NCBI GenBank assembly: GCA_021806135.1
Contig: JAJZYB010000001.1
Coordinates: 62,001-126,000 of the forward strand
Length of the DNA stretch: 64,000 bases
Source of the DNA: Thermoplasmata archaeon
GTDB taxonomy: Archaea > Thermoplasmatota > Thermoplasmata > Lutacidiplasmatales > UBA184
Reading direction: 5' to 3'
Shown: one piece after another, positions 5,183-27,847 of the stretch
Numbering within the stretch: the stretch's first letter is position 1
Layout: each line of letters opens with the position of its first letter
Program-made: the position numbers and the translations under genes
The notes under the pieces: model-generated
The model's input: the letters and a program-made list of their open reading frames with translations, nothing else
Told to the model about the DNA's origin: nothing
Databases searched by the model: none

Positions 5183-5911
5183 ATGGCTTCTACCTCCACA
5201 GGTGGGAAGGTTCCCCGGATCCGGACCTATGTGGACGGCCTCGACGAGAAGATCGAGGGGGGCATCCCCCAGGGACAGGTGGTCATGGTGGCCGGGGAAC
5301 CGGGGACCCTCAAGAGCAGCTTCGCCTTCCACGTGGCCTACCACAACGCCCTGAAGGAGGGGCGCAAGGCCCTCTACATCACCATGGAGCAGTCCCGGGA
5401 GAGCCTGCTCCAGAACATGGCCGGCCTCGGGATGGACATCGCGCCGGTGGCCGGGAAGCTTTCCATCGTGGACATCGGGCTCATCCGCAAGAACCTGGAC
5501 GTGCTGGACCGCCGCTCCTGGATCGAGGTCCTGAAGATGTACGCCCGCAACATGCGGGAGAGCCAGGGGTACGAGCTCCTGGTGCTGGATTCCCTGCAGG
5601 TGCTGGAGACCCTCTCCGAGTTCCAGCACCCCCGGGCCGACCTCTTCCAGTTCTTCGAATGGATCCGGGGCCTGGGGGTCACCGGGCTCATCATCCTGGA
5701 GGTCCGCCCTGAGGCCCGGGACTTCGGGAGCTACGGGGAGGACTACCTCTCGGACGGCATCGTCCACCTGATGATGTCCCGGATCAACGAGGAGACGATC
5801 CAGCGCCGGCTCCGGGTGGTGAAGATGCGCTCCACGAACCACTCCACCAACCTGTACAGCCTTCTCCTCGAAAAGGGGAAGTTCCGCATTGCCCGCGTCA
5901 TCTCCACCTGA
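5183..5911 (+). CDS. KaiC-like RecA-superfamily ATPase, single domain
   Basis: GLDEKIEGGIPQGQVVMVAGEPGTLKSSFAFHVAYHNA Walker A, YELLVLDSLQVLE Walker B; TATA-like catttaag about 5116-5123. Confidence 0.85.
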   Translation: MASTSTGGKVPRIRTYVDGLDEKIEGGIPQGQVVMVAGEPGTLKSSFAFHVAYHNALKEGRKALYITMEQSRESLLQNMAGLGMDIAPVAGKLSIVDIGLIRKNLDVLDRRSWIEVLKMYARNMRESQGYELLVLDSLQVLETLSEFQHPRADLFQFFEWIRGLGVTGLIILEVRPEARDFGSYGEDYLSDGIVHLMMSRINEETIQRRLRVVKMRSTNHSTNLYSLLLEKGKFRIARVIST

Positions 5912-11974: not shown

Positions 11975-12325
11975 GCGTCCGCGGGGGAGAGGGGTCGCAA
12001 AAAGACCGACATTCACCGGTGAACCATGAGCATGAACGTGCCTCCCCGCTGGGGGTCCGGCCGATGGGGCTCCCCAAGGTGCACCCGAGCGTTCCACCAT
12101 GACCCCGTGGACGGGGCGGCCAAGGACCGCCGCGAATGACCACCCCGCCACGCTCCGCCGAGCACCAAGGTCTGACCTCGGCGGCCCCAGGGCGGCCCCG
12201 CCCCCATGGTCCGGGAGCCCCGGGAGATCCCATCGGGACCCGGGCATTAGGCCGGTGCCGGATCCCTGCGCGGAACCGACGGGCCGGACCGGTCCGGTGT
12301 CTTCCCGGACGGGGGGGCCGGCAGC

Positions 12326-12334
12326 TAGATATAG
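12326..12334 (+). promoter_or_regulatory. TATA-like element of the aromatic/Trp supercluster
   Basis: tagatatag centred about 28 nt upstream of the ATG at 12358. Confidence 0.5.
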
Positions 12335-12357
12335 GGCCCCCCCTCCTTGCCTTTCCC

Positions 12358-12423
12358 ATGATGAGCGCTCTCCGGCCCGCCGACCCTGGCCGCCGGGACG
12401 CTCCTCGAACTTGGGCCTGGTGA
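12358..12423 (+). CDS. Putative 21-aa leader peptide MMSALRPADPGRRDAPRTWAW
   Basis: ORF with tandem ATG start at the expected leaderless position and TGG GCC TGG TGA at its end, upstream of the Trp biosynthesis supercluster. Confidence 0.45.
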   Translation: MMSALRPADPGRRDAPRTWAW

Positions 12424-12500
12424 GGGGGAGGTGCCGGGACGGCGCCTTCCCCCGATCCTCTGACCGGGGCCGTCCAGGCCACCTCCCCCTCCCCTTCCCC
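12422..12500 (+). promoter_or_regulatory. Putative RNA switch region with mutually exclusive helices
   Basis: 12422-12433 is perfectly complementary to 12480-12491; 12424-12435 alternatively pairs with 12441-12453; 12437-12446 pairs with 12466-12475 (9/10). Confidence 0.4.
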
Positions 12501-12522
12501 AGATGTGGAAAGAGAGGAAAAC

Positions 12523-13284
12523 ATGAACGGAAAGGACCTGCGGCTCCGGCGGCTGCTCCCCCGAGACGATTCCCGGCTCTTCGCGGTCCCCCTGGACCAT
12601 AGCCTCTCCCTGGGGCCCATCCCCGGGCTCGAGGACCTGGCGCGCCAGGCCGTCGCCCTGCAGGAGGCCGGCGCAGAGTTGCTCATCGTCCACAAAGGAG
12701 CGAGCCGGCAGGTCCTCCCCACGCTTCGTCCCGGGACATTCCTGGGGATCCATCTCTCCGCCTCTACCTCCATGGCGGCGCCGGGGGAAAGGAAGCGGCT
12801 GACCGGTTCGGTCCGGGAGGCCGTCCGCCTGGGGGCCGACCTCGTGAGCGCCCAGGTGAACTTCGGTGAGCCGGGGGAAGGGACGATGCTCGAGGACCTC
12901 GCGCGCCTCACGGGCGAGGCGGAGGAGCTGGGCATCCCGCTGCTGTGCATGGCGTACGTGCGGGAGCGCGGACACGAGAACGACCCGGCCTACCTCGCCC
13001 ATGCCTGCCGGGCTGTCTCCGACCTGGGGGCGGACCTGGTGAAGACGAACTTTCCCGGTCCGGAGGGGTTCCGCCAGATGGTGCGGACCACACCGGTACC
13101 TCTCCTGGTGGGAGGGGGCCCCCGGGCGGACGACCCGGCCCAATTCCTCACCGTGGTCCGCCAGGCCCTCGACGCCGGTGCCCGGGGGATCTGCGTGGGT
13201 CGGAACCTCTTCCAGAGCGGCGACCTGGCCACCCTGGGAGGCGACCTCCGCCGCCTCCTTCGTTCCCCGGGGAGGGAACCCTGA
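12523..13284 (+). CDS. 2-amino-3,7-dideoxy-D-threo-hept-6-ulosonate (ADH) synthase
   Basis: FAVPLDHSLSLGPIPGLED, GADLVKTNFPG, VGGGPRADD, GARGICVGRNLFQ; adjacent to DHQ synthase II. Confidence 0.9.
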   Translation: MNGKDLRLRRLLPRDDSRLFAVPLDHSLSLGPIPGLEDLARQAVALQEAGAELLIVHKGASRQVLPTLRPGTFLGIHLSASTSMAAPGERKRLTGSVREAVRLGADLVSAQVNFGEPGEGTMLEDLARLTGEAEELGIPLLCMAYVRERGHENDPAYLAHACRAVSDLGADLVKTNFPGPEGFRQMVRTTPVPLLVGGGPRADDPAQFLTVVRQALDAGARGICVGRNLFQSGDLATLGGDLRRLLRSPGREP

Positions 13285-13290
13285 CGGACC

Positions 13291-14310
13291 ATGGGACCAG
13301 ATCGGATCATCCTTGAACTCCCTCCCGGCGAGCCGGGAAGGGCCTTGCGCTCCCACGCGCGGCAGCGGGGTTTCCAACGCTTCCTCCTTCCCGAGGAGGA
13401 CCGGTCGGCCGACCGGGGCGAGCCGGGCGTTCACTATCTGGCCGGTGAGCGCCTCCTGGACCCGCAGGGACGCCCGGTGGGCGAGGTCGTGCCCGTGGGC
13501 TCGCCGGAAGAGCTGGAACGCTTCCTGGTGCGGATGCCCCACGACCGCCTCGAGCTCGTCGAGTTCCAGGGGGAGAGGTTGATCCCCCTGGAGAACCTGC
13601 TGAGCCGGCGGAAGGGCACCGGCGAACTGTGGGTACGGGCCCCCACCCCCTCCTCCATCCCTGGGTTGCTCGGCGCCCTCGAGCGTGGCTCGGATGCCGT
13701 GGTCCTCGCCCTCTCGCGCACGGAGGAGCTCATGGACTTGGAGCATCTCCTCGAGCAGGCGGTGAGGGCCCTGATGTGGACCGAGGTGGTCGTCCGGGAG
13801 AGCCGACCCGCCGGGATGGGGGAACGGGTCCTGGTGGACACCACCTCCCGGCTCCGGCCCGACGAGGGACTCCTGGTGGGCAGTCAGGCGGGGCTCCTCC
13901 TGCTCGCCCTCAGCGAGTCGGAGGGGTCGCGGTACACGCGACCCCGGGCATTCCGGGTCAACGCCGGGGCCCTCCATTCGTACACCCTGCTGGCGGAGGG
14001 GGAGACCCGATACCTGGACGAGCTGGCGGCCGGGGACCGGGTGGTCATCTCGCGACCGGACGGGCCAGCCCGGACGGCCCGGGTCGGTCGCCTCAAGGTG
14101 GAGCGCCGCCCGCTTCGGCTGGTGGCGGTGGAGCACGAGCAGCGGACGTACACCCTCTTCGCTCAGGAGGCGGAGACGGTCCGGCTCCGGGGAACCGACG
14201 GCCCGGTCGCCGTCCCGGATCTGGTCGTGGGTCAACGGCTGTGGGCCGTCACCCTTCCGTCAGCCCGCCACTTCGGACATGTGGTGGACGAGTCCGTGGA
14301 GGAGCGTTGA
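13291..14310 (+). CDS. 3-dehydroquinate synthase II
   Basis: RVLVDTTSRLRPDEGLLVGSQAGLLLLALSESEGSRYTRPRAFRVNAGALHSYTL, the archaeal AroB' signature. Confidence 0.92.
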   Translation: MGPDRIILELPPGEPGRALRSHARQRGFQRFLLPEEDRSADRGEPGVHYLAGERLLDPQGRPVGEVVPVGSPEELERFLVRMPHDRLELVEFQGERLIPLENLLSRRKGTGELWVRAPTPSSIPGLLGALERGSDAVVLALSRTEELMDLEHLLEQAVRALMWTEVVVRESRPAGMGERVLVDTTSRLRPDEGLLVGSQAGLLLLALSESEGSRYTRPRAFRVNAGALHSYTLLAEGETRYLDELAAGDRVVISRPDGPARTARVGRLKVERRPLRLVAVEHEQRTYTLFAQEAETVRLRGTDGPVAVPDLVVGQRLWAVTLPSARHFGHVVDESVEER

Positions 14311-15857
14311 CCGAGTCCGTACCCCTGCCCCCTTTGCTGGTGGTCACCCTGCCGGGCCGGACGGCGGAGGAGCTCAGGGCCGACCTCGGGGAGGCCGCTC
14401 GGGCCGGGGCCGACCTGGTGGAGATCCGGCTCGACCGCCTGTCCCCCGGGGAGTTCACCCGGCTGGAGCGGGTCCACGACCTCCCGCTGCTTCACCCCTG
14501 GATCCCCGCCATCGGCACCCTTCGTTCCCGGGCGGAAGGGGGAGAGGGGCCCGATGACCCCGCCACGCGCGCCCGGATCCTCCAGCGTGCCCTGGAGCTC
14601 TTCCCCTTCAGCTTCCTCGACCTGGAGTTCTCCCGGGATGGGGAGCTTAAGGACAACTTCCGGCAGGATGGTGGCCGGCCGCTCTCCTTGATCGGATCGA
14701 CCCACTTCCCCGGGCCGGTACCCGTCGGGTCGGTGCTCTCCCGGCTCGAAGAGACGCTCGGGTCGTTCGATGTGGCGAAGGTGGTCCTACCGGCGGACGG
14801 ACGCTACCTGGTCGAGGAGCTGCTCCCCGCCCTCCAGCCGTTCAAGGACCGGCCGTACGTGGTCCACACGGTGGGAGGACTGGGGTCGGTCCTGCGCGTG
14901 CTGGCCCGGCGCCTGGGCATGGAATGGGTCTTCGGGACATTGCCGGAAGGTCCCCCGGGCCGGGCGACGCACCGAGCTGTGGAACCCGCTCAGATCCCGT
15001 CGGATCGCCTCCGGCGCTACCTGGATGCCCCCGGGGATTGCCCCTGGTACGGCGTGGTCGGCCGCCCGCTCGGGCACACCCTTTCGCCATACTACCAGAA
15101 CCTGTTCTTCGAGGCCACCGAGCTCTGCGGCCTCTACGTCCCCCTCGAACCCTCCGCCTCGGACGACCTGCCTGGACTGCTCCGGGCCCTTCGGCCCTAC
15201 GGGCTCGCGGGGGTCAACGTGACCCGTCCGTTCAAGACCCAGGCCGCCGCACTGGCCGAGAGCGCCGACGAGGACGTGGAGCTCTCCGGGGCGGCCAACA
15301 CGCTCCTGTTGCCCCCGACCGGGCCCATCGAAGGGCTCAACACCGACGTCCAGGCCCTCCGCCGGCGGCTGGAGGAGGGGGAGCAGGAGGGGCTCTGGGA
15401 CGGGGGCCGGATGCTGGTGGTCGGGACCGGAGGCGCCGCCCGGGCGGCCATCCTCGCCGGCCTGGGAGCCAGCGCCCGGGTGCTGGTCCTGAGCCGGAGC
15501 CCGGAGCGGGCCAGCGCCCTCGCGGCGGAGTTCCCGTCCGAAGCGGTCCGTCCGGCAGCTCCGGAGACCCTGACCCCCTTCCCCCTGGTGGTCCATGCCA
15601 CCCCTGCCGGCCAGACCGCCGAACCGGGCACCTTTCCCCCTCTCGCAGCCGCGTTGGGGAAGGGGAGCTGGCTGCTCGACCTCGTGTACCGACCGCTCCG
15701 TACCCAGCTGAAGGACTGGGCCAATGCCGTGGGGGCATGCTACGAGGACGGGACCCGGATCCTCCTCTACCAGGCCCGGGCGAGCTTTGAACGCTTCACC
15801 GGCAGGCCCCTCTCCGACGCGACCTTTGGGGCGCTCCTTCCGGAGGCCTCCCGATGA
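14307..15857 (+). CDS. aroDE: Bifunctional 3-dehydroquinate dehydratase (type I)/shikimate dehydrogenase
   Basis: N-terminal LVEIRLDRL, STHFPGP, VAKVVLP; C-terminal GVVGRPLGHTLSPYYQN, GVNVTRPFKTQ, GAANTLLL, GLNTD, VVGTGGAARAA; TTG start in a 4-bp overlap. Confidence 0.9.
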   Translation: MTESVPLPPLLVVTLPGRTAEELRADLGEAARAGADLVEIRLDRLSPGEFTRLERVHDLPLLHPWIPAIGTLRSRAEGGEGPDDPATRARILQRALELFPFSFLDLEFSRDGELKDNFRQDGGRPLSLIGSTHFPGPVPVGSVLSRLEETLGSFDVAKVVLPADGRYLVEELLPALQPFKDRPYVVHTVGGLGSVLRVLARRLGMEWVFGTLPEGPPGRATHRAVEPAQIPSDRLRRYLDAPGDCPWYGVVGRPLGHTLSPYYQNLFFEATELCGLYVPLEPSASDDLPGLLRALRPYGLAGVNVTRPFKTQAAALAESADEDVELSGAANTLLLPPTGPIEGLNTDVQALRRRLEEGEQEGLWDGGRMLVVGTGGAARAAILAGLGASARVLVLSRSPERASALAAEFPSEAVRPAAPETLTPFPLVVHATPAGQTAEPGTFPPLAAALGKGSWLLDLVYRPLRTQLKDWANAVGACYEDGTRILLYQARASFERFTGRPLSDATFGALLPEASR

Positions 15858-16705
15858 CCCGGGCGGGGCGGGGAACCGCCTGGGGAGGGATCTCCTTCCT
15901 CAACGGCATCCCCACGGGAGTCGGGTCCACGGCCGCCGTCCGGCTACCGGTAGAGGTGACCGTGGAGCCGGGGGTCTCGGAGGAGGCGTTGCCGGAGGGT
16001 CTGGACGGGGTGCTCCGGGAGAGCCTACGAGCCCTGGGCGATGGGCCGGACGGCGAGCGGGACCGCCCCCTGCGGGTGCGGGTGCGATCCGCCGTTCCCC
16101 CGGGTCAAGGTTTGAAAAGCTCCTCCGCGGTCTCGATCGCCCTCCTCCGCGCGCTCCGGGACCGGTGGGGCAGCCCTCCCCTTCCTCCCGAGGACCTGGC
16201 CCGGCTCAGCGCCCGGGTCTGTAGGGCGGCCGGTCTCAGCATCACGGGAGCCTACGACGACGCGCTCGCCTCGGCCGGCGGCGGGATCGTGCTGGGGGAT
16301 GTCCGGGGGGAACAGACCCTCCGCAAGGACGACCCGCCCCCGGGAGTCGCGGTACTCCTGTGGCTGCCGGGAGGCACCCATCCGGAGGTTGCCCTCCTCC
16401 GCCAGCACTGGAACCGGGTGCACTCGCCCGAGGCGAAGGCCGCCGAGGCCGAGGCCCGGGCCGGCCGGTACTTCGAGGCCATGGAGCTGAACACCCTGCT
16501 GGTGGAACGGGTCCTGGGATACCCCTGGGGAGAGCTCCGCCGTCGACTGAAGGCGGCGGGGGCGCTTGCCTCGGGGGTCTCCGGAAACGGTCCGGCCCTG
16601 GCCGTGGTGATCCCCAGCGGAACCGAGCGGCGCTTCGATGGCATCTTCCTCACCGGAGAGCTCCTCCAGACCACGCTAGTCCCGGCCGGCGAGGCGCCCC
16701 CATGA
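15854..16705 (+). CDS. Archaeal (GHMP-type) shikimate kinase
   Basis: PPGQGLKSSSAVSIALLRAL, SITGAYDDALASAGGGIVL, ASGVSGNGPALAVV. Confidence 0.88.
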   Translation: MTRAGRGTAWGGISFLNGIPTGVGSTAAVRLPVEVTVEPGVSEEALPEGLDGVLRESLRALGDGPDGERDRPLRVRVRSAVPPGQGLKSSSAVSIALLRALRDRWGSPPLPPEDLARLSARVCRAAGLSITGAYDDALASAGGGIVLGDVRGEQTLRKDDPPPGVAVLLWLPGGTHPEVALLRQHWNRVHSPEAKAAEAEARAGRYFEAMELNTLLVERVLGYPWGELRRRLKAAGALASGVSGNGPALAVVIPSGTERRFDGIFLTGELLQTTLVPAGEAPP

Positions 16706-18060
16706 CCCCCCCGAGGGCTCTCGCCCCCGGGAGCGAGGCGGGGGAGGTCTGGCGGATCGTGCCGGGGCCCCTTTCCGGCAGGCTCGTCGGGTCGGGGTCC
16801 AAGAGCTACACCCACCGCGCCCTCCTGGCGGGGCTGCTCGGCCGGGGACGGATGACCATCCATCACCCCCTGGTCTCCGACGACACCGCGGCGAGCCTGG
16901 GGGTCTCCAGGGCGCTAGGTGCGACGGTGCACGAGCGCACGGACGGCCCCGGGCTTTCCTGGGACCTGGATGCGAGCGAGGCCCTCCACCCGACCCGCCA
17001 GACCCGGCGGCTCTGGGCCGGGGAGTCCGGGACCACCCTACGCCTCTTCACCCCGGCGAGCACCCTTCCCGGGACACCGGTCCGGTGGGACGGGGAAGCC
17101 TCCCTCGCCCGTCGGCCCATGGATCCGCTCCTTCGAGCCCTATCGGAGCTGGGGGCACGGGTCCGTCCCGCGGCCCCGGGCCGGAGCCTCCCGTTCCGGA
17201 TCGAGGGGCCTCTTTCCGCGGGGACCGTGACGCTCCCGGGCTCCGTGAGCAGCCAGTTCCTGTCCGGACTGCTCTTCGCGCTCGCGGGGCTGCCTTCGCC
17301 CAGCCGGGTCCGGGTTCAGGGCCCCCAGGTCTCCCAGCCGTACGTGGAGGCGAGCCTGCGGGTGCTCGGTGCCTTCGGGGTGCGGATCCAGCGGGGTCGA
17401 GGCTGGTACGGGGTCCCCGGGAACGGCCCGTTCCGGCCCGTCCCGCTGGAGATCCCCGCGGACGCGAGCTCAGCCGCCTACCTCTTCGCCGGAGCAGCGC
17501 TGTCGGGCGGGACGGTCCGTGTCGGGCCCTTTCCGGTCGGATGGCCGCAAGCCGACCTCGCCGTGCTGCCGGTCCTGCGGGCCGTGGGCGCCCGCGTCGT
17601 CCGGCGAGGGACCGACTGGGAGGTCTCCGGCGGCCCGCTCCCTCTCCGTCCGTTCCGGGCGGACCTCGATGCGTCTCCGGACCTCGCCCCCCTGCTCGCG
17701 GTCCTCGCCAGCTTCGGACGGGGGGTGAGCCGACTGACCGGGGGCGCCCAGTTGGTGCACAAGGAGAGCGACCGTCGTCGCGGGACCGAAGCGCTCGTGC
17801 GGTCCTTGGGGGCGAGGCTCCGACGTTCCAGGGAGGAGTGGGCGATCCAGGGACCCCCGTCGGTCCGCAGGCTGAGACGGCTTACGCTCTCGGACCATCG
17901 GCTCCTCTTCTCGGCGGCGGTGGCCGCCCTCGCCTTGCCCGAGCCGTCGACGCTCGGACCGGGGTCCGCCGCCGCCAAGTCCTATCCCCGGTTCTTCCAG
18001 GACCTGGCCGGCCTCGGGGTCGCCGTCCGTCCCACCGGGCGGAAGGGGGTGGGCGGATGA
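16702..18060 (+). CDS. aroA: 3-phosphoshikimate 1-carboxyvinyltransferase
   Basis: GSGSKSYTHRALLAGLLGRG, AGESGTTLRLF, SVSSQFLSGLL, DASSAAYLFAGAAL. Confidence 0.93.
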   Translation: MTPPRALAPGSEAGEVWRIVPGPLSGRLVGSGSKSYTHRALLAGLLGRGRMTIHHPLVSDDTAASLGVSRALGATVHERTDGPGLSWDLDASEALHPTRQTRRLWAGESGTTLRLFTPASTLPGTPVRWDGEASLARRPMDPLLRALSELGARVRPAAPGRSLPFRIEGPLSAGTVTLPGSVSSQFLSGLLFALAGLPSPSRVRVQGPQVSQPYVEASLRVLGAFGVRIQRGRGWYGVPGNGPFRPVPLEIPADASSAAYLFAGAALSGGTVRVGPFPVGWPQADLAVLPVLRAVGARVVRRGTDWEVSGGPLPLRPFRADLDASPDLAPLLAVLASFGRGVSRLTGGAQLVHKESDRRRGTEALVRSLGARLRRSREEWAIQGPPSVRRLRRLTLSDHRLLFSAAVAALALPEPSTLGPGSAAAKSYPRFFQDLAGLGVAVRPTGRKGVGG

Positions 18061-19145
18061 GGATGCGCTTCGGCGAGGCGCTCCAGGTCACGGTCTTTGG
18101 ATCGAGCCATGGGCCGGATGTCGGTTCGGTGGTGGAGGGCCTTCCCGCCGGGCTCCCGGTCGACCTGACGGGGATCCAGGCGGAGCTCGACCGACGTAGC
18201 CCCGTCGGGAGGAAGCTCGCCACCCGCCGGGCGGAGCGGGACCAGCTCATCCTCACCCATGGGGTCTCCGGGGGGAGGACCACGGGGGGACCGGTGGTCG
18301 GGTACGTGAGGAACGAGGACGTTCGCCGGGGACCGTACCGCCCCCTGGAGGACGTTCCCCGCCCGGGACACGCCGATTACCCGGCGCGCGAGCGCTACGG
18401 CGGGTCTTTGGACCTCTCTGGAGGAGGGATCTTCTCCGGCAGAATGACGGTGGGTCTGGTGTTGGCCGGCGCCCTCGTCCGCCCCTTCCTCACGGCCCAA
18501 GGGGTCTCTGTCGTCGCCTTCACACGGTCGATCCACGGGATCTCCGTCCCCGAGACGGCCCTGTCCCTTCCGCTCACGGGACTGGAGGCGGCCTCCCGGG
18601 AGAACGAGCTGGGCGCGCCGGACCCGGACGCCGCCGAGGCCATGACCCGGTCCATCGAGGAGGCCCGCCGCTCCGGCGACAGCGTCGGGGGGATCATCGA
18701 GGCCCGGGCCGAAGGGCTACCTGTGGGCCTCGGAGAACCCTTCTTCGATTCGCTAGAGGGCTCCCTCGCCCACGCGCTCTTCGCGATCCCCGCCGTCAAG
18801 GGCGTGGAGTTCGGCTCCGGCTTTGCCTCGGCCGATCGGCTCGGGAGCGAGAACAACGACCCGTACGAAATGGTCCAGGGAACCGTCCGGACCCGGACCA
18901 ACCACGCCGGCGGGATCCTGGGAGGGCTCTCGACCGGCATGCCTCTCCTCCTCAGGGTGGTGGTGAAGCCCACGAGCTCCATCGCCCGGGAGCAGGAGTC
19001 CATCTCCCTCTCCCGGAGGACCGCGCAACGGTTGGTGGTCACCGGAAGGCACGACCCGTGCATCGTTCCCCGTGCGGTCCCAGTGGTGGAGCACGTCACC
19101 GCCTTCGTCCTCGCCGACTTCCTGCTCCGCCGGGGGCGTTCATGA
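18057..19145 (+). CDS. aroC: Chorismate synthase
   Basis: GSSHGPDVGSVVEGLPAGLPVD, PGHADYPARERYG, SARETA-like GGRMTVGLV, GGSSGGI-like HAGGILGGLSTGMP, TGRHDPCIVPRAVPVVE. Confidence 0.94.
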   Translation: MRMRFGEALQVTVFGSSHGPDVGSVVEGLPAGLPVDLTGIQAELDRRSPVGRKLATRRAERDQLILTHGVSGGRTTGGPVVGYVRNEDVRRGPYRPLEDVPRPGHADYPARERYGGSLDLSGGGIFSGRMTVGLVLAGALVRPFLTAQGVSVVAFTRSIHGISVPETALSLPLTGLEAASRENELGAPDPDAAEAMTRSIEEARRSGDSVGGIIEARAEGLPVGLGEPFFDSLEGSLAHALFAIPAVKGVEFGSGFASADRLGSENNDPYEMVQGTVRTRTNHAGGILGGLSTGMPLLLRVVVKPTSSIAREQESISLSRRTAQRLVVTGRHDPCIVPRAVPVVEHVTAFVLADFLLRRGRS

Positions 19146-20200
19146 GCCGGATCCCCTGCGCCATCCTGGGGGCCGGCGGCTGGATCGGACAACACTTCGC
19201 CCGTCTCCTGAACGACCACCCGGAGTTCCAGGTGGAGGCGCTCACCGGGGGGAAGAGCGCAGGACGGACGCTGGGGGAGCTCTGGCAGCTCGCGGACGTC
19301 CCCGTCCCCAGCGAGCTCGGCCCCCGGCGCCTGGTCCAGCTCGCTCCGCGGGAGCTGGCGGCCCGGGGGGTCCGGGTCGTCTTCTCCGCCCTCCCCGGGT
19401 CGGAGGCCGGGCCTCTCGAGACCGAGCTTGCCCGCCGGGGGATCGCCGTCTTCTCGAACGCCTCCTCGCACCGGATGGACCCCGGGGTCCCGCTCCTGGT
19501 CCCCGAGGTCAATGGTCCTGCCCTTACGTCCCGTCGCTCGGGCCCACTCCTGGTCACCAACCCGAACTGTTCCACGGCCGGGCTGGTCCTTCCCCTGGCC
19601 CCGCTCTGGGACCGGCTCCGGCCGACGGAGGTCTTCGTGGCCACCTACCAGGCGCTCTCAGGAGCAGGTTATCCAGGGGTCCCGGCCCTTTCGGTGGTGG
19701 ACAACGTCCTGCCGTTCATCCCGGAGGAGGAGGAGAAGATGGCGGCGGAAGCGTCCAAGATCCTCGGCTTCCGTCCCGGCAACGGACCGGGACAGAGCCG
19801 GGTCCTCGCCCACTGCGTGCGCGTTCCCTCCCGGGAGGGACACCTCGAGGCGGTGACCTTGAAGGTCCGCCGCCCTCTCCCCGCCCGGGAGATCGTTCAG
19901 GCGTGGGAATCCTTCCACCCCCTCGAGGACGGACGCGCCTCCGGTGGCCTACCCACCGCCCCGGAACAGCCGGTGCTCTACCTTCCTGAAGAGGACCGGC
20001 CGCAGCCGCTCCGGGACCGGTGGGCGGGAGACCCGACGAGGGCCCGCGGGATGACGGTCTGCGTCGGTCGCCTCCGGATCGATGGGCCGTACGTCCGCTT
20101 CATCCTTCTCGCGCACAACGCCGTCCGCGGCGGAGCCGGAGGGTCTGTGCTCAACGCCGAATACGCCCGATACAGGGGGGCCCTTGGACCCGGACGCTGA
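19142..20200 (+). CDS. asd: Aspartate-semialdehyde dehydrogenase
   Basis: ILGAGGWIGQHFARLL, VTNPNCSTAGLVLPLAPL, TYQALSGAGYPGVP. Confidence 0.92.
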   Translation: MSRIPCAILGAGGWIGQHFARLLNDHPEFQVEALTGGKSAGRTLGELWQLADVPVPSELGPRRLVQLAPRELAARGVRVVFSALPGSEAGPLETELARRGIAVFSNASSHRMDPGVPLLVPEVNGPALTSRRSGPLLVTNPNCSTAGLVLPLAPLWDRLRPTEVFVATYQALSGAGYPGVPALSVVDNVLPFIPEEEEKMAAEASKILGFRPGNGPGQSRVLAHCVRVPSREGHLEAVTLKVRRPLPAREIVQAWESFHPLEDGRASGGLPTAPEQPVLYLPEEDRPQPLRDRWAGDPTRARGMTVCVGRLRIDGPYVRFILLAHNAVRGGAGGSVLNAEYARYRGALGPGR

Positions 20201-21515
20201 GCCCCTCCCTACGGTGGTGAAGTACGGCGGGGCCGCCCTTAGCCCCGCGATGGCCCAGCGGGCCGCCGAGGATCTGCTCGGCCGGACGGGGCCGATCGTG
20301 GTGGTGGTCTCCGCCCGGGCCGGGGTGACCGACCAGTTGCTCTCCTGCCTGGAGCCCCCCTTCCGCACCGTGCGGCACGTGGAGACGGTGCAACAGATGC
20401 GGTTAGAGCACCCGGGGCTTACCCCCGCCGGGGAGACCCAGTTCCAGGCCCTGGAGCGGGACCTCAAGCGTCTGCGGTCCGAGGGCCGAGCGACCCCGGA
20501 GCTCTCCGACCGGATCCTGACCTACGGAGAACGGCTGGCCGCCTCCTGGTTCGCCGGTGAGATCCAGCGACGGGGCCGGCCGGCCCAGGCGGTTGAGGCG
20601 GACCGGCTCGGGCTCAAGACCGATGGCTCCCCCGGCGATGCCCGGGTCCTGCTCGCCGCGTCCGCCGCCCGGGTACGTCGTGGGCTGACCGGGCTCCTCG
20701 GGCGGGGGGTCCTTCCCGTGGTCACAGGCTTCCTCGGCGTCTCGAGCGGGGGCCGAGTGACCACCCTTGGCCGGGGGGGCTCCGACTATTCCGCCACCGC
20801 GCTCGCGTACTGCCTCGGCTGGTCCCGGGTCGAACTGGTCAAGCAGAGCGTGAGCCTGCGCTCTGCCGATCCCCGGCTGGTCCCGGGGACCCGGCCGGTC
20901 GAACGCTTGTCCTTCGACGAGGCAGAGGAGCTCGCCCAGTTCGGGGCGAAGGTGCTCCACCCCCGGACCATGGAGCCGGCCCGGGCCCGGGGGATGGAGG
21001 TGACCATCCGCTCCCTGGAGGACCCAACGCAGAGGACGCTGGTGGGCCCGCGTCCCGGCCCGGAGCCCCTACGCGCCATCACCCTGCTGGGCCCGGTGAG
21101 CCTCCTGCTGCTCCGGGTCCCGGGAGGGCGCCAGCGGCGAGGGGTCCTCGCCGAGGTGAGCCTCGCCCTCTCCACCGGGGGGGTCACGGTGGCCACCCTG
21201 TACACCTCCTCTGCCCTCCTGTGCATCGTGGTGGAGTCGGCCCAGGCCTCCCGGGCCCAGAAGCTTCTGAAGCGGTTCTCCCGGGTGGAGGGCGCAACGC
21301 TGGAGGGTCCCCTGCCCGCGGCGCTGGTCACCGCCATCGGGGAGGGGTTGCTCTCCGACCTGGGTCGGTTGCCCGGAGGGCTTCCTCCCCTCGTGCTCGG
21401 CGCCAGCGCCACCAATCGGACCCTTTCCCTGGCCGTCCCGGCGGACCGGGGGTTGGAGGTCCTTCGCGCGCTGCACCGGAACCTGGTGGAACGTCGGGAG
21501 GCGCCGGGCGGATGA
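20184..21515 (+). CDS. lysC: Aspartate kinase
   Basis: VVKYGGAAL, LTYGERLAASWFAG, TTLGRGGSDYSATALAYCLGW, FGAKVLHPRTMEPAR, C-terminal ACT-like region; TTG start at 20184 (alternative GTG at 20213). Confidence 0.9.
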   Translation: MDPDAEPLPTVVKYGGAALSPAMAQRAAEDLLGRTGPIVVVVSARAGVTDQLLSCLEPPFRTVRHVETVQQMRLEHPGLTPAGETQFQALERDLKRLRSEGRATPELSDRILTYGERLAASWFAGEIQRRGRPAQAVEADRLGLKTDGSPGDARVLLAASAARVRRGLTGLLGRGVLPVVTGFLGVSSGGRVTTLGRGGSDYSATALAYCLGWSRVELVKQSVSLRSADPRLVPGTRPVERLSFDEAEELAQFGAKVLHPRTMEPARARGMEVTIRSLEDPTQRTLVGPRPGPEPLRAITLLGPVSLLLLRVPGGRQRRGVLAEVSLALSTGGVTVATLYTSSALLCIVVESAQASRAQKLLKRFSRVEGATLEGPLPAALVTAIGEGLLSDLGRLPGGLPPLVLGASATNRTLSLAVPADRGLEVLRALHRNLVERREAPGG

Positions 21516-22786
21516 GGACGGCAGGGGCGGAGGTACGGGGCGACCCTCTCGAAGGCTTCCTTTCGGAGGCCCGGGAGGTCTCCGGACCGGCCTTCTACTT
21601 CGAACGCGGCCCCTCTCTGGCGGGGGACCGACGCTGGGCGATCTACGGCAGCGCGGGCGAGGAACCCTGCACCCTGCGGTCCCCCCGGGACGTCGGGACT
21701 CTCGCCGAGAAGCTGGGGGGACTCCGGACGAGCGCGGAGAGTCGCTGGTTCGGGTACCTCGGCTTCGATGCCTGCGGGCTTTTCGAACCCCTCCTCCGGG
21801 CGTCGGTCCCCTCCGGCTCCCCGTTCCCCCTTGGCCAGTTCTACCGCTTCTCCCGGATACGCTCCGGCCGACCCCGGCTTCCGGGCGCGGGCGGGCGGAG
21901 GGATCCTGGGGCCTTGACCGTGGGGCCCGTCCGGGACCAGACCAGCGCTGCCCGCTTCGAGGAGTCGGTCCGGAAGCTCCAGAGGTCGATCCTGGACGGG
22001 GAGGCCTTCCAGGTGGTCCTGGCCCACCGGCGCGAACGCTACCGTTCCGGGTCGCTGCTCCGGCTCCTCTGCCGGCTCCGGGACCGGGAACGCTACGCGT
22101 ACCTGTTCTACCTGCGCTTCGGCCCGGGGGACCGGGGCGAGGTCGTGGGGGCGTCCCCGGAGAGCGTGCTCGAGGTCCGGGACGGGCGGGCGACCATCGA
22201 TCCGATCGCCGGCACGCTGCCTCACCCGGGGCCACGACGGGGCCGGAGGGCCCGACTCCCCCTGCGCTCGGACCCCAAGGAGCTCGCCGAGCACCGGATG
22301 CTCGTGGACCTGGCCCGGAACGACCTCGGGAAGGTCTGCCAGCCAGGCTCCGTGAGGGTGCTCCGCCAGGAAGTACGGGTCCGGTATGCGCATCTGGAGC
22401 ACCTGGTGAGCCGGGTGGGGGGGGACCTCCGGCCCGAAGAGACCGCGGTCTCCGCCCTCGCGTCGGCCTTCCCGGCCGGGACCGTCAGCGGGGCGCCGAA
22501 GATCCGGGCCATCCAACTGCTTCGGCGCGAGGAGCAGACCTGGAGAGGCCCCTACGCCGGGGCCGTGGGGCTCTTCGGCCCGGGCCGGCAGGCGGATTTC
22601 GCCCTGGCGATCCGCACCGCCTTTGCGTTCGGTCCCCGGCTCTTCACCGCGGCCGGCGCGGGGATCGTCCAGGCCTCCCGCCCGAAGCAGGAATGGGAGG
22701 AGACCCACCACAAGCTCTCCACGCTGGAGGCGATCCTCGCCGAGAGCTCCCACGGCGGCGCCGACGCCGGGGAGGGGCGGTCATGA
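21512..22786 (+). CDS. trpE: Anthranilate synthase component I
   Basis: GASPESVLEV, IDPIAGTLP, DPKELAEHRMLVDLARNDLGKV, FPAGTVSGAPKIRA. Confidence 0.93.
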   Translation: MRTAGAEVRGDPLEGFLSEAREVSGPAFYFERGPSLAGDRRWAIYGSAGEEPCTLRSPRDVGTLAEKLGGLRTSAESRWFGYLGFDACGLFEPLLRASVPSGSPFPLGQFYRFSRIRSGRPRLPGAGGRRDPGALTVGPVRDQTSAARFEESVRKLQRSILDGEAFQVVLAHRRERYRSGSLLRLLCRLRDRERYAYLFYLRFGPGDRGEVVGASPESVLEVRDGRATIDPIAGTLPHPGPRRGRRARLPLRSDPKELAEHRMLVDLARNDLGKVCQPGSVRVLRQEVRVRYAHLEHLVSRVGGDLRPEETAVSALASAFPAGTVSGAPKIRAIQLLRREEQTWRGPYAGAVGLFGPGRQADFALAIRTAFAFGPRLFTAAGAGIVQASRPKQEWEETHHKLSTLEAILAESSHGGADAGEGRS

Positions 22787-23373
22787 AGGTCCTCCTGGTG
22801 GACCATCAGGACTCCTTCGTCCACAACCTCGCCCAGGCCCTGGCCACCCTCGGGGCGGAGGTCTACACCCGGCGGTCCTCCTTCCCGTTCTCCCAGGTGA
22901 AGCGGCTGGACCCGGACGCCGTGGTCCTCTCCCCCGGCCCCGGGCACCCCTCCGACCGCGCCACGCTGGGGGTCACCTTCCGTATCCTCGAGGAGCTCTC
23001 ACCCGCCCTCCCCACGTTGGGGGTCTGCCTCGGGCATCAGGCCATCGGCTACCACTTCGGGGCGCGGGTGATCCGGGCCCCTCGTCCCTGCCACGGCGAG
23101 ACCTCGCGGGTCGAGCACGACCGGGACCCGATCTACGAAGGGCTCCCGGACCCGTTGGTGGCGGCGCGTTATCATTCGCTCGTCGTCTCGCCCCGCGGCC
23201 TTCCCGCGGACCTTAGGGTGAACGCCTGGGAACGGGAAGGGAAGACCCGGGTGATCATGGGCCTACGTCACCGTCACTTTCCCGTGGTCTCCGTGCAATT
23301 CCACCCGGAGTCCTACCTGACCCCCCAAGGACCCCGTATCCTCAAGAACTTCCTCGGGGAGGCCCGGCGGTGA
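22783..23373 (+). CDS. trpG: Anthranilate synthase component II (glutamine amidotransferase)
   Basis: LLVDHQDSFVHNLAQ, VLSPGPGHPS, LGVCLGHQAIGYHFGA, SVQFHPESYLTPQG. Confidence 0.94.
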   Translation: MKVLLVDHQDSFVHNLAQALATLGAEVYTRRSSFPFSQVKRLDPDAVVLSPGPGHPSDRATLGVTFRILEELSPALPTLGVCLGHQAIGYHFGARVIRAPRPCHGETSRVEHDRDPIYEGLPDPLVAARYHSLVVSPRGLPADLRVNAWEREGKTRVIMGLRHRHFPVVSVQFHPESYLTPQGPRILKNFLGEARR

Positions 23374-24419
23374 CCGCGAAGGATCCGGTGCGGGAGGGCC
23401 GGGAATGGCTCCTTAGCCTGCAGCACCACGAGGACCTTTCCCGATCGGAGGCCTACCGCCTGGCGGAGCGGCTCGCCTCCGGCACGTTTCCCGAGGCGTT
23501 GGCGGGAGCTCTCCTGGTGGCATTGGCCGCGAAGGGGGAGAGCCCGGAGGAGATCTTCGCCTTCGCCACCTTCCTGCGTCGCCACGCCCGTGCTTTCCTC
23601 CCGGGAGAGGTCGACGGCGCGGTGGACCTCTGCGGAACCGGGGGAGCCGCTCACCCCACCTTCAACGTCTCCACGGTGAGCGCCTTCGTGGTCGCGGCCG
23701 GGGGACTGCCGGTCGTGAAGCACGGGAACTCCTCCGCCCGAGGACCCTGTGGGTCGAGCGATCTCCTGGAGGCTCTGGGCCTCCCCGTGAAGGTCTCCCC
23801 GGGCTACGCCGAGGCCTCCTTCCGGCGCGAACGGCTCGCCTTCCTCCACGCCCCCCTCTACCACCCGGCCACCGCCTCCATCGCCGGGATCCGTCGAGCC
23901 CTCGGGACGAGGACCGTCTTCAACCTGCTCGGCCCGCTGAGCAACCCCGCTCCGGTGCGGATCCAGCTCCTCGGCTGCTTCGACCGGGCCTACGCCAGGA
24001 CCGCGAGCGGACTGCTCCCGCGTCTAGGGGTCCCCCGGAGCCTCACCTTCACCGGGGAAGAGGGGACGGACGAGTTCGTCCCCGGGGGGAGGACTTTCGG
24101 CTTCGTCCGGCAGGGGGAGCGCAGCGCGAGATGCCGGTTCGAGGGACGGCGGTATCTGACTCCCCGGGAACGGAGAGGGTCCATCGGTCCCCTTCCCCCG
24201 ACCGGGGCGGCCAGGGAAGCGGAACGGCTGCTCGCCGGGGGATCGGGAGCGCGACGGGGCTCGGTCCTCCTGACTGCGGGGGCCGCGTTCTGGGTCTCCG
24301 GCCAGGACCGGACGATGAACGAGGGGATCGAGCGGGCTCGCCGGCTCCTGGACGAGGGCAAGGCACTCGAGAAGCTGCGGGCTCTCCAGGAGTTGGCGGA
24401 GGGACGGACGTGGTCGTGA
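23370..24419 (+). CDS. trpD: Anthranilate phosphoribosyltransferase
   Basis: DLCGTGGAAHPTFNVSTVSAFVVAAGG, VKHGNSSARGPCGSSDLLEALG, RTVFNLLGPLSNP. Confidence 0.93.
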   Translation: MTAKDPVREGREWLLSLQHHEDLSRSEAYRLAERLASGTFPEALAGALLVALAAKGESPEEIFAFATFLRRHARAFLPGEVDGAVDLCGTGGAAHPTFNVSTVSAFVVAAGGLPVVKHGNSSARGPCGSSDLLEALGLPVKVSPGYAEASFRRERLAFLHAPLYHPATASIAGIRRALGTRTVFNLLGPLSNPAPVRIQLLGCFDRAYARTASGLLPRLGVPRSLTFTGEEGTDEFVPGGRTFGFVRQGERSARCRFEGRRYLTPRERRGSIGPLPPTGAAREAERLLAGGSGARRGSVLLTAGAAFWVSGQDRTMNEGIERARRLLDEGKALEKLRALQELAEGRTWS

Positions 24420-25225
24420 ACCCCGTCGAGCCCGGGTTCCTGCGGCGGATGGTCCAGGAGGTCCGTCGCCAGCTGGAGGAAGGCGTCTACGACCAGGTCG
24501 GCGAGCCGGGGGAGCCACCGCCCGCCTCGGAGCGCTTCTCCTCGGCGATCGCCTCTGGCCAACGCCCGGGCCTCATCGCGGAGCTCAAGCACGCCTCCCC
24601 CGGATACCAGGAGGGGGAACTCCGGGCGCCTGGCCCCGAACGGTTCCTCCAGTGGGCCCGGGCCGGGGGGGCCCAGGCCATCTCGGTGGTTCCCCAGGCC
24701 TTCCGCTTCGGTGGCTCGCTGGAGGAGTTCGGGAGGGTCGCCGGGAAGAGCTCCCTCCCCGTCCTCTTCAAGGACTTCGTCCTCGACCCCCGTCAGATCC
24801 GGGCCGCTCGCCGTTGCGGGGCCCGTGCGGTGCTCCTGCTCGCGCGCCTGGAGTACGAGGGAGGGCTTTCCGGCCCGCTCGCGAGCCTGGTGGAAGAGGC
24901 GCACCGGGCCGGCCTGGAGGCGGTGGTGGAGGTCCACCGGGAAGAGGACCTCCCCAGGGCCCTGGCCTCCCGGCCGGATCTCCTCGGGGTGAACGCCCGG
25001 GACCTGGAGACCCTTGAACTGGACCGGGCCCGGGCCCTTCGCACGCTCGCCAGCGCCCGGGGACACGGGATCCCGTTGGTGGGAATGAGCGGCATCGCCG
25101 GTCCGGAAGAGGTCCGAGCCTACCAGAGGGCCGGCGCCGACGCGGTCCTGGTGGGAACCCGATTCATCGAGGCGGAGGACCCCGGGGCCTTCCTCCGTTC
25201 CTTGCGACCCGGGGAACACCGGTGA
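24416..25225 (+). CDS. trpC: Indole-3-glycerol-phosphate synthase
   Basis: LIAELKHASPGYQEGE, VLFKDFVLDPRQI, LLGVNARDLETLELD, GMSGIAGPEEV; GTG start. Confidence 0.92.
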   Translation: MNPVEPGFLRRMVQEVRRQLEEGVYDQVGEPGEPPPASERFSSAIASGQRPGLIAELKHASPGYQEGELRAPGPERFLQWARAGGAQAISVVPQAFRFGGSLEEFGRVAGKSSLPVLFKDFVLDPRQIRAARRCGARAVLLLARLEYEGGLSGPLASLVEEAHRAGLEAVVEVHREEDLPRALASRPDLLGVNARDLETLELDRARALRTLASARGHGIPLVGMSGIAGPEEVRAYQRAGADAVLVGTRFIEAEDPGAFLRSLRPGEHR

Positions 25226-25238
25226 GGCGGAAGGGACC

Positions 25239-25880
25239 TTGAAGGTGAAGATCTGCGGGCTGACCCGCCGGGAGGACCTCGAAGCCTGCCAAGGCGCGGA
25301 CCTCGTGGGGGTGGTGGTGGGAGTTCCCCGTTCCCCCCGCAACCTCACCTGGACGGAGGCCGAGGGCCTCCTGGCCGCGGCCCGGGGCCGGTTCCTTCGG
25401 GTGGTGGTCCTGGCCTCCCCGGCCCCCTCGGAGGTGGCCCGGGCATTCCGGGCCGGGGCGGACCGGGTCCAGCTCCACGGCCCGGTCCCCTCCGGGCTAC
25501 CCTTCGGGAGCGAAACCACGCTCATCCCTTCGCTGGCCCTGCCCAAGAGCCCCGGCGAACAGCTTCCGCCCTCCCTGGAGCGGATCTGGCACGGCCCCTA
25601 TCCGTTGGTCCACCTGGATACGGGGGGGGAGGACCGGCCGGGGGGAACCGGCAGGGCCTGGGACTGGGCCGGCTGGTCGGGGCTGATCCGTCGTGACCGC
25701 CGGCCTTTCCTCCTGGCAGGGGGGCTGACCTCGGAAAACGTCACCCGGGCCATGACGGAGCTCACCCCGTGGGGGGTGGACGTGTCCAGCGGGGTGGAGT
25801 CCCGTCCCGGACAGAAGGACCCCGTCCGCATCCAAGAGTTCATTCGGACGATCCGTGCTTGGGAGGACGCCCATGCCTGA
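25239..25880 (+). CDS. trpF: Phosphoribosylanthranilate isomerase
   Basis: [55 protein letters not shown] start. Confidence 0.93.
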
Positions 25881-27042
25881 GTGGTACGGCCCCTACGGAG
25901 GTTCCTACGTCCCCGAGACCTTGGTCCCGGCGTTGAAGGAGCTCGAACTGGTCTGGAAGAGTGCCCGCAGGGACCCGGAATTCCGCTCCCGGTTCCAGGA
26001 TCTGGCTCGGGACTGGGGAGGGAGGCCCACTCCCCTCTACTTCGCCGAACGGCTCACCCGGGAGGTGGGCGGGGCCGAGATCTACCTCAAGCGGGAGGAC
26101 CTGGTGCACGGGGGCGCCCACAAGCTGAACAATGCGCTCGGGCAGGGACTGTTGGCCCTGCGGCTCGGGAAGCGTCGGCTCATCGCCGAGACCGGGGCCG
26201 GACAGCACGGCGTGGCCACCGCGATGATCGGGGCGAAGCTCGGGCTGTCCACCGAGGTGTACATGGGAGCGGCGGACATGGAACGCCAGAAGCCCAACGT
26301 GCTGCGGATGCGGCTTCTCGGCGCCACCGTCCGGCCCGTGACCCAGGGGCAGCAGACCCTGAAGGAGGCGATCAACGAGGCGCTCCGGGACTGGATCGCC
26401 AACGTACAGGACACCCACTACCTCCTGGGCAGCGCCGTGGGGCCCCACCCCTTCCCTTCTCTGGTGGCGGACTTCCAATCGGTGATCGGACGGGAACTAC
26501 GAAGGCAGAGCCGGGCCCGGTGGGGACGGGACCCGGACCTGGTCCTCGCCTGCGTGGGTGGGGGATCGAACGCCATCGGGACGTTCCACCCTCTTCTCCG
26601 GGGGCCGGCCCGGCTGGTCGGGGTGGAGGCCCGGGGCTCGGGAGAGCCCTCGGGCTGGGGGGCCGCCTCCCTGGTCCGCGGTTCGGTAGGGGTACTGCAC
26701 GGGATGCGCACGTATCTCCTGCAGGACGAGGAAGGGCAGATCCTTCCCACCCAATCCGTCTCAGCGGGCCTGGACTACGCGGGGGTGGGACCGGAGCACG
26801 CCTGGTTGAAGGACTCCGGGAGGGTGGAGTACACCTCGGCCACCGACCGGGAGGCCCTCGAGGCCTTCCACCGGTTGGCGCGGACGGAGGGGATCCTGCC
26901 GGCGCTGGAGCCCTCGCACGCGCTGGCCGTGGCCCTTCAACGGGCGACGACGTTGCCCCGGGACCAGCACGTGGTGGTGACCCTATCCGGACGGGGGGAC
27001 AAGGACCTCGCGGAGGTGGAGCGGTTTGGGCCGCCTCGGTGA
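25873..27042 (+). CDS. trpB: Tryptophan synthase beta chain
   Basis: [57 protein letters not shown]. Confidence 0.94.
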
Positions 27043-27847
27043 GGTCCTCCGCCAGCGCCGCGAGCGCGGAGAGGGAAGCCTTCTCACCTACCTGATGGCC
27101 GGTTCGGTCCCCCCCGAGAAGTTCCTGTCGTGTGTCCGGGCCTTCCGCGCCGCCGGGGTGACCGGGCTGGAGGTGGGCTTTCCCTTCAGTGACCCCATGG
27201 CCGAGGGCCCGGTGATCCAGCGCGCGGCGACCCTGGCCCTGGCCCGGGGCACCCGGTGGTCGGACCTCCTGGAGTTGTTGCCCCAGGTGGCCGAGGAGCT
27301 TCCCGTGGCGGTGATGACCTACCTCAACGTCATTCTGCGTCACGGCGGGGGAAAGGCGCTCGAGGAGCTCCGGTCCCACGGGGCCGACGCGGTGATCTTG
27401 CCGGACCTTCCCCTGGAGGGCCTCCGGGACCTGGGAGCTCACCGGGCCGTGAAGGGCCTGGACATCGTGCTGCTCGCTTCCCCGGCGACCGGCGCCGAGC
27501 GGCTCCGTCGGCTCGCCCGCCACACCGAGGGCTTCCTCTATCTGGTCTCCCGCTACGGAACGACCGGGCTGGGGGGAGGCACGACGCCTTCCACCAAGAC
27601 CCACGCACTGGACCTGACCGAGGAGATCCGGCAGGTCCATGCCGAACGGCCGAAGTTGCCCATCCTGGCCGGCTTCGGAGTGCGTCACGCGCAGGACATC
27701 CGTTCCTTCCTTCAACAAGGGGCGGACGGGGCCATCGTGGGCAGCCTGCTGCAGGATCGGCTCAACGAGGAAGCGCAAGTCTCTGAACTGGACGCACTGG
27801 TCCGGGCGCTCGTTCAGGGTCTGGCGAAAACGAGCACCGGGCCTTGA
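27026..27847 (+). CDS. trpA: Tryptophan synthase alpha chain
   Basis: [56 protein letters not shown] start. Confidence 0.92.

Follow-up and report, generated by a model that had tools for sequence, protein, structure and literature searches.

The leader and the gene cluster behind it

The window, a continuous stretch of 64,000 nt from a Thermoplasmata archaeon, carries a short open reading frame on its forward strand that encodes MMSALRPADPGRRDAPRTWAW*, i.e., 21 codons and a stop (Table 1). The start codon (ATG, 12358–12360) is directly followed by a second ATG (12361–12363), and the frame closes with TGG (12412–12414), GCC (12415–12417), TGG (12418–12420), and TGA (12421–12423). The distance from the first base of the first Trp codon (Trp1) to the end of the stop is 12 nt, approximately one ribosome half-footprint. 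A preliminary description of this DNA had placed a mini-ORF ending in Trp-Ala-Trp-stop at this site and the first structural gene at 12523, behind a leader of roughly 165 nt. The codon positions match the sequence exactly, and the 165 nt between the leader ATG (12358) and the ATG of the 2-amino-3,7-dideoxy-D-threo-hept-6-ulosonate (ADH) synthase gene (12523) bear out the remainder of that claim.

The ADH synthase gene is followed by shikimate pathway genes, asd, an aspartate kinase gene, and a complete set of trp genes. Several NCBIfam matches within the cluster do not reach the curated cut-offs, which is unsurprising in a divergent lineage. The presence of asd and aspartate kinase is in keeping with the archaeal ADH route, which draws on aspartate semialdehyde.

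Table 1. Coordinates of the leader, its promoter, the RNA strands behind it, and the downstream genes (positions in the window).
Feature	Position	Strand	Basis
TATA-like box TAGATATA of the leader promoter	12326..12333	+	Sequence; spacing kept in homologous leaders
Leader ORF	12358..12423	+	66 homologous leaders share the UGG and UGA end
Sensor codons UGG-GCC-UGG (Trp1, x, Trp2)	12412..12420	+	Trp-x-Trp-stop in 63/66 leaders
Strand 1 GGGGGAGGTGCC, SD-like; partner strand 2 or strand 3	12424..12435	+	Conserved; alternative pairings
Strand 2 GGCGCC; hairpin 1:2 with 12430–12435, 5-nt loop	12441..12446	+	Core pairs kept
Strand 3 CCGTCC....CACCTCCCCCTC	12470..12491	+	1:3 duplex energy and compensatory pairs
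Strand 4, Shine-Dalgarno region GGAAAGAGAGGAAAAC, 5' of the first structural gene	12507..12522	+	3:4 pairing energy
ADH synthase, first structural gene	12523..13284	+	NF005556, E 2.7e-67, slightly below curated cut-off
3-Dehydroquinate synthase II, aroD/aroE fusion, archaeal shikimate kinase, aroA, aroC, asd, aspartate kinase	13291..21515	+	NCBIfam
trpE, trpG, trpD, trpC, trpF, trpB, trpA	21515..27847	+	NCBIfam

With regard to the promoter, the GATATA core of TAGATATA begins 30 nt 5' of the leader AUG. The block GCAGCTAGATATAGGG is kept between both species of the window's genus, while the DNA upstream of it is not, and among the homologous leaders described below, the TATA-like box starts approximately 28–31 nt upstream of the AUG in 62 of 66. 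The TATA-like element previously noted is therefore present, at a spacing close to but not identical with the 28 nt given for it, and the leaderless start that was proposed on these grounds gains support from the spacing in nearly all leaders. Transcription probably begins at or beside the AUG, and the leader would be translated from a leaderless start.

Conservation and the link with tryptophan genes

A covariance model built on 22 leaders was run against 103 genomes of the archaeal family and found the leader in 66 of them, covering six of the seven genera. All 66 share UGG as the last sense codon and UGA as the stop; the three that deviate from Trp-x-Trp-stop end in PWW, SWW, and GSW. For a single sequence at 70% GC, a Trp-x-Trp end is only mildly unusual, and it is the retention of the Trp-codon end in 66 genomes that takes the ORF beyond chance. 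Since the model extends only 21 nt upstream from the end of the stop and ORF length is not part of it, the constancy in length comes from the genomes themselves: 56 of the 66 leaders have exactly 23 codons and the others 21, 22, or 24 (the window's has 21), with a bias in a few cases that offer several in-frame AUGs, of which the one nearest 23 codons was chosen. In 65 of 66 leaders, the Trp codons share their reading frame with the first AUG close to the predicted transcription start.

Conservation is distributed very unevenly. The body of the leader shows 17% amino-acid and 40% nucleotide identity, the last four codons reach 87% amino-acid identity, and the first 22 nt 3' of the stop have a mean nucleotide identity of 82%; judged by these alignments, the RNA behind the stop is the most conserved part. 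The residue between the two Trp codons varies (L, S, A, P, W, G), and UGG and UGA are invariant; all 48 leaders ending in WLW use CTC as the middle codon. The same pattern is found at short distance: a second species of the genus (G001; leader MMSPPSSGSLGCRGALRTWAW*), whose ADH synthase is 90% identical to that of the window, differs at a single position over the 77 nt that run from the stop to about 12500, while divergence is seen in the ORF body and 5' of the TATA box. An alignment across related genomes had been suggested as a check on the leader, with homologous loci lacking conserved Trp codons as a ground for rejection. In this comparison, the UGG-UGA end is kept in all 66 leaders and an in-frame start in 65, with an almost unconserved body, which is the opposite of the refuting outcome.

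Several smaller features accompany this pattern. Despite the random-like body, the distance from AUG to Trp1 is 60 nt in the 23-codon leaders, which perhaps leaves room for a fixed ribosome queue. At 12403–12415 and in homologues, codon 18 seemingly pairs with Trp1 plus the base that follows; positions −21 and −9 (counted from the end of the stop) covary and are paired in 59 of 66 leaders, and this small hairpin appears to be conserved. As the genomes are metagenome assemblies, errors are possible, and in G016 (leader L026), the aligned start of ADH synthase reads ACG TAC GGA where relatives have ATG TAC GGA, i.e., either a non-standard start or an assembly error. Outside the family, the covariance model matched no leader in 400 genomes of the class and 395 of the phylum, a search that divergent leaders could escape, and no Trp mini-ORF was found 5' of trpE or ADH synthase in the loci examined.

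The leader follows the tryptophan genes. Both leader and trpE occur in 58 of the 103 genomes, the leader alone in 8, trpE alone in 7, and neither in 30 (Fisher p = 2.7e-12). All eight genomes with the leader only are less than 85% complete, and among the 36 genomes that are at least 90% complete, the counts are 23, 0, 3, and 10 in the same order (p = 1.1e-6); both tests ignore shared ancestry, and these p-values overstate independence. Several genomes without trpE and without the leader still possess ADH synthase. A natural experiment is provided by G010, where the trpEGDCFBA genes form an operon of their own with the leader MAAGPCHVSYDARPAMSSCAWGW* directly 5' of it, and ADH synthase is encoded on another contig, without a leader. 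In three genomes of genus g4 (G005, G015, G020), trpE has no Trp leader upstream; it stands there 3' of a zinc-ribbon-like coding sequence. In-frame TGA codons were noticed in some TrpE matches, and the one checked (G092) is an ordinary stop with an overrunning match.

Matches to prephenate dehydratase were found in none of 13 genomes of the family (f1), compared with 14 of 14 control genomes, and prephenate dehydrogenase gave only weak partial matches in 5 of the 13. The shikimate genes may thus serve mainly tryptophan in this family, and the placing of the entire cluster under a Trp sensor would then make sense; phenylalanine may come from uptake or from an enzyme not yet recognised.

Competing helices behind the stop codon

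Directly 3' of the stop lies an RNA segment whose strands have alternative partners, a feature that the preliminary description did not include. Strand 1 reads GGGAGGCGCC in most leaders and GGGGGAGGTGCC in the window. Its hairpin with strand 2 has a core of six pairs that are paired in 79–100% of 62 leaders (five of them in 98–100%), and a few leaders carry compensatory or wobble changes. Strand 3 lies approximately 60 nt downstream of strand 1; in the window, 12480–12491 is exactly complementary to 12422–12433, and 12470–12475 pairs within 12436–12442. The 1:3 duplex has a mean energy of −34.1 kcal/mol compared with −23.9 kcal/mol after shuffling of strand 3 and is stronger in 66 of 66 leaders; it also beats most strand swaps between dissimilar genomes in 56 of 66, and compensatory changes are present, e.g., GC/AU at one pair and GC/CG at another. 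For the pairing of strand 3 with the Shine-Dalgarno (SD) region, −15.8 kcal/mol was obtained against −12.4 kcal/mol with shuffled strand 3, with better values in 83% of leaders. Neither of these shuffle controls corrects for relatedness. The flanks of the 3:4 helix vary together with matching complements (CTCCCTTTCGA/TCGAGAGGGAG, TCCCTCGC/GCGAGGA, TCCCTTCG/CGAAGGA), and the pairing is weak in the window's own genus (−12.1 kcal/mol). On this comparative evidence, the 3:4 helix is less well supported than 1:2 and 1:3.

Through their common strands 1 and 3, the helices 1:2, 1:3, and 3:4 are mutually exclusive. The fold of the window from 12350 to 12540 has a z-score of −4.26, and this post-stop RNA probably carries the output of the leader.

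A ribosome covers about 12 nt counted from the first base of its A-site codon. Its front edge would therefore come to lie at the end of the stop when Trp1 occupies the A site and approximately 9 nt further, over strand 1, when the stop codon does; the constant 12-nt gap from the start of Trp1 to strand 1 fits such a ribosome ruler. The 66 leaders were folded with a mask for the front edge that was moved along the RNA. Predicted openness of the SD stayed at approximately 0.41–0.45 until the edge reached +3 (0.42 at the stop) and fell to 0.32 at +9. The mean drop was 0.102 compared with 0.010 in interior-shuffled controls (largest set mean 0.032), and 21 of the first 22 leaders showed a drop of this sign. 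The effect is modest and heterogeneous, and about one leader in three shows little or none of it. Such leaders include those of the window's own genus, where hairpin 1:2 has 12 bp; in G000, the SD is open only with the ribosome edge before the end of the stop, because this hairpin is unusually long there. Without any ribosome, the folded leader tends to the open state, and repression would hence call for a ribosome that stays at the stop or for kinetic trapping.

A probable ribosome-read tryptophan sensor and its alternatives

Leader conservation, co-occurrence with trpE, and the natural experiment in G010 together make a Trp-sensing, ribosome-read leader in an archaeon a well-supported reading at the level of comparative genomics. 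We assign a probability of about two in three to the view that this sensor acts through translational attenuation. A shortage of charged tRNA-Trp would hold the ribosome with Trp1 in the A site and its front edge near the stop codon; strand 1 would then be free to pair with strand 3, and the SD in strand 4 would be open (on). With ample Trp, the ribosome would reach UGA and cover the first 9 nt or so of strand 1, leaving strand 3 free to pair with the SD (off). After its departure, hairpin 1:2 could catch strand 1 and preserve the off state. Somewhat less firmly, we favour the fuller picture of an archaeal, leaderless, 23-codon Trp leader with a 20-codon AUG-to-Trp1 ruler, on which a stalled or terminating ribosome would switch SD access of the shikimate-to-tryptophan operon, and which has a probable origin independent of the bacterial trp attenuator.

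In bacteria, ribosome-mediated attenuation is a textbook mechanism, and the archaeal leader may work in a similar manner. With the E. coli trpL type, it shares a short leader peptide, clustered, nearly adjacent Trp codons in front of trp genes, and mutually exclusive downstream helices. In contrast to that type, its start is apparently leaderless and not SD-led, the Trp codons come last in the ORF, the conserved alternative pairing aims at the ribosome binding site of the first gene, and shikimate genes, asd, and aspartate kinase appear to be governed as well. As the defining intrinsic terminator (GC hairpin and U-tract) was looked for before the first gene and not found, the archaeal leader falls outside the terminator-based trpL class. 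The Trp-sensing leader of the preliminary description is retained as a sensor, while its likeness to bacterial transcription attenuation fails in this detail. Bacterial translational attenuators (ermC and cat leaders) are comparable in that ribosome position on a leader ORF decides SD access, and here too, a helix in competition with one further upstream can close off the SD, if weakly in the window's genus. The signal there is an antibiotic, whereas here it would be a scarce amino acid read through Trp codons, with the stalled ribosome leaving the switching strand free just ahead.

Retention of such a leader in 66 archaeal genomes would mean that the attenuation principle arose, or survives, in the other prokaryotic domain, in a version that apparently acts on translation initiation instead of a terminator and from a seemingly leaderless transcript. 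It would offer a ready system for the interplay of archaeal ribosomes, leaderless initiation, and mRNA folding and also bears on the regulatory use of archaeal transcription–translation coupling. No report of an archaeal ribosome-mediated attenuator was found in the open-access full texts searched. A screen of 1.54 Mb of one genome (G025) for leaderless mini-ORFs with other repeated amino acids at the end yielded nothing convincing; a His-rich candidate proved to be antisense to a ferredoxin-like coding sequence.

Among the alternatives, the strongest is that the same stall decides the release of RNA polymerase in the leader, by intrinsic termination or through a factor with untranslated RNA as its target, such as FttA/aCPSF1. 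Sensor codons and exclusive helices are indeed those of bacterial trp attenuators, and strand 3 of G010 contains TTTTT, with TTTT in a few other leaders. Archaeal termination depends on U-rich stretches, however, and a run of at least five T occurs in only 1 of 66 leaders, with no recurring site (mean longest run 2.4 compared with 2.0 in shuffles). The translational reading is preferred because neither U-tract nor terminator is present, and the conserved competition targets the SD, which makes control by polymerase release or polarity unlikely.

It is less probable still that the locus is a riboswitch or protein-bound RNA whose mini-ORF goes untranslated, the Trp codons being a by-product. The high conservation behind the stop would agree with this, and the invariant CTC and the codon 18:Trp1 hairpin indicate that RNA constraint reaches into the ORF. 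Against it stand a promoter-set AUG that keeps its frame with Trp-x-Trp-stop across a random-like body and a middle residue that varies between invariant codons; furthermore, an Rfam search (T-box, riboswitch, Trp_leader) returned only microRNA-type chance matches far below gathering scores.

Termination–reinitiation or ribosome shunting, with the long 1:3 hairpin bringing the leader stop beside the SD, is very improbable: the hairpin does start directly 3' of the stop and end just 5' of the ribosome binding site, but expression would rise with plentiful Trp, the wrong sign for a biosynthetic operon, and about 91–121 nt separate the leader stop from a gene start that has a good SD of its own.

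A functionless chance mini-ORF, with the operon uncontrolled or under a DNA-binding repressor, would suit what is known of archaeal trp control, i.e., the TrpY repressor of Methanothermobacter, beyond which, according to a 2019 paper (PMC6737238), little has been described, and the Tar activator of Thermococcus, yet it is hardly credible given the leader conservation and the co-occurrence with trpE. TrpY and Tar likewise tie trp/aro control to the supply of Trp or aromatic amino acids, but they are DNA-binding proteins acting at promoters (PMC6737238), and the leader promoter has no corresponding site: there is no TRP box (TGTACA) near 12300 and no Tar-type TGGACA-N8-TGTCCA, the nearest Tar-like match upstream (12123–12142) having three mismatches and the total count in the window being at chance level. 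Elsewhere in the window, TGTACA occurs at 5853, 21199, 26258, 40330, and 48367, five copies compared with 0.9 expected in shuffles, an excess that may be fortuitous or mark sites of a further regulator.
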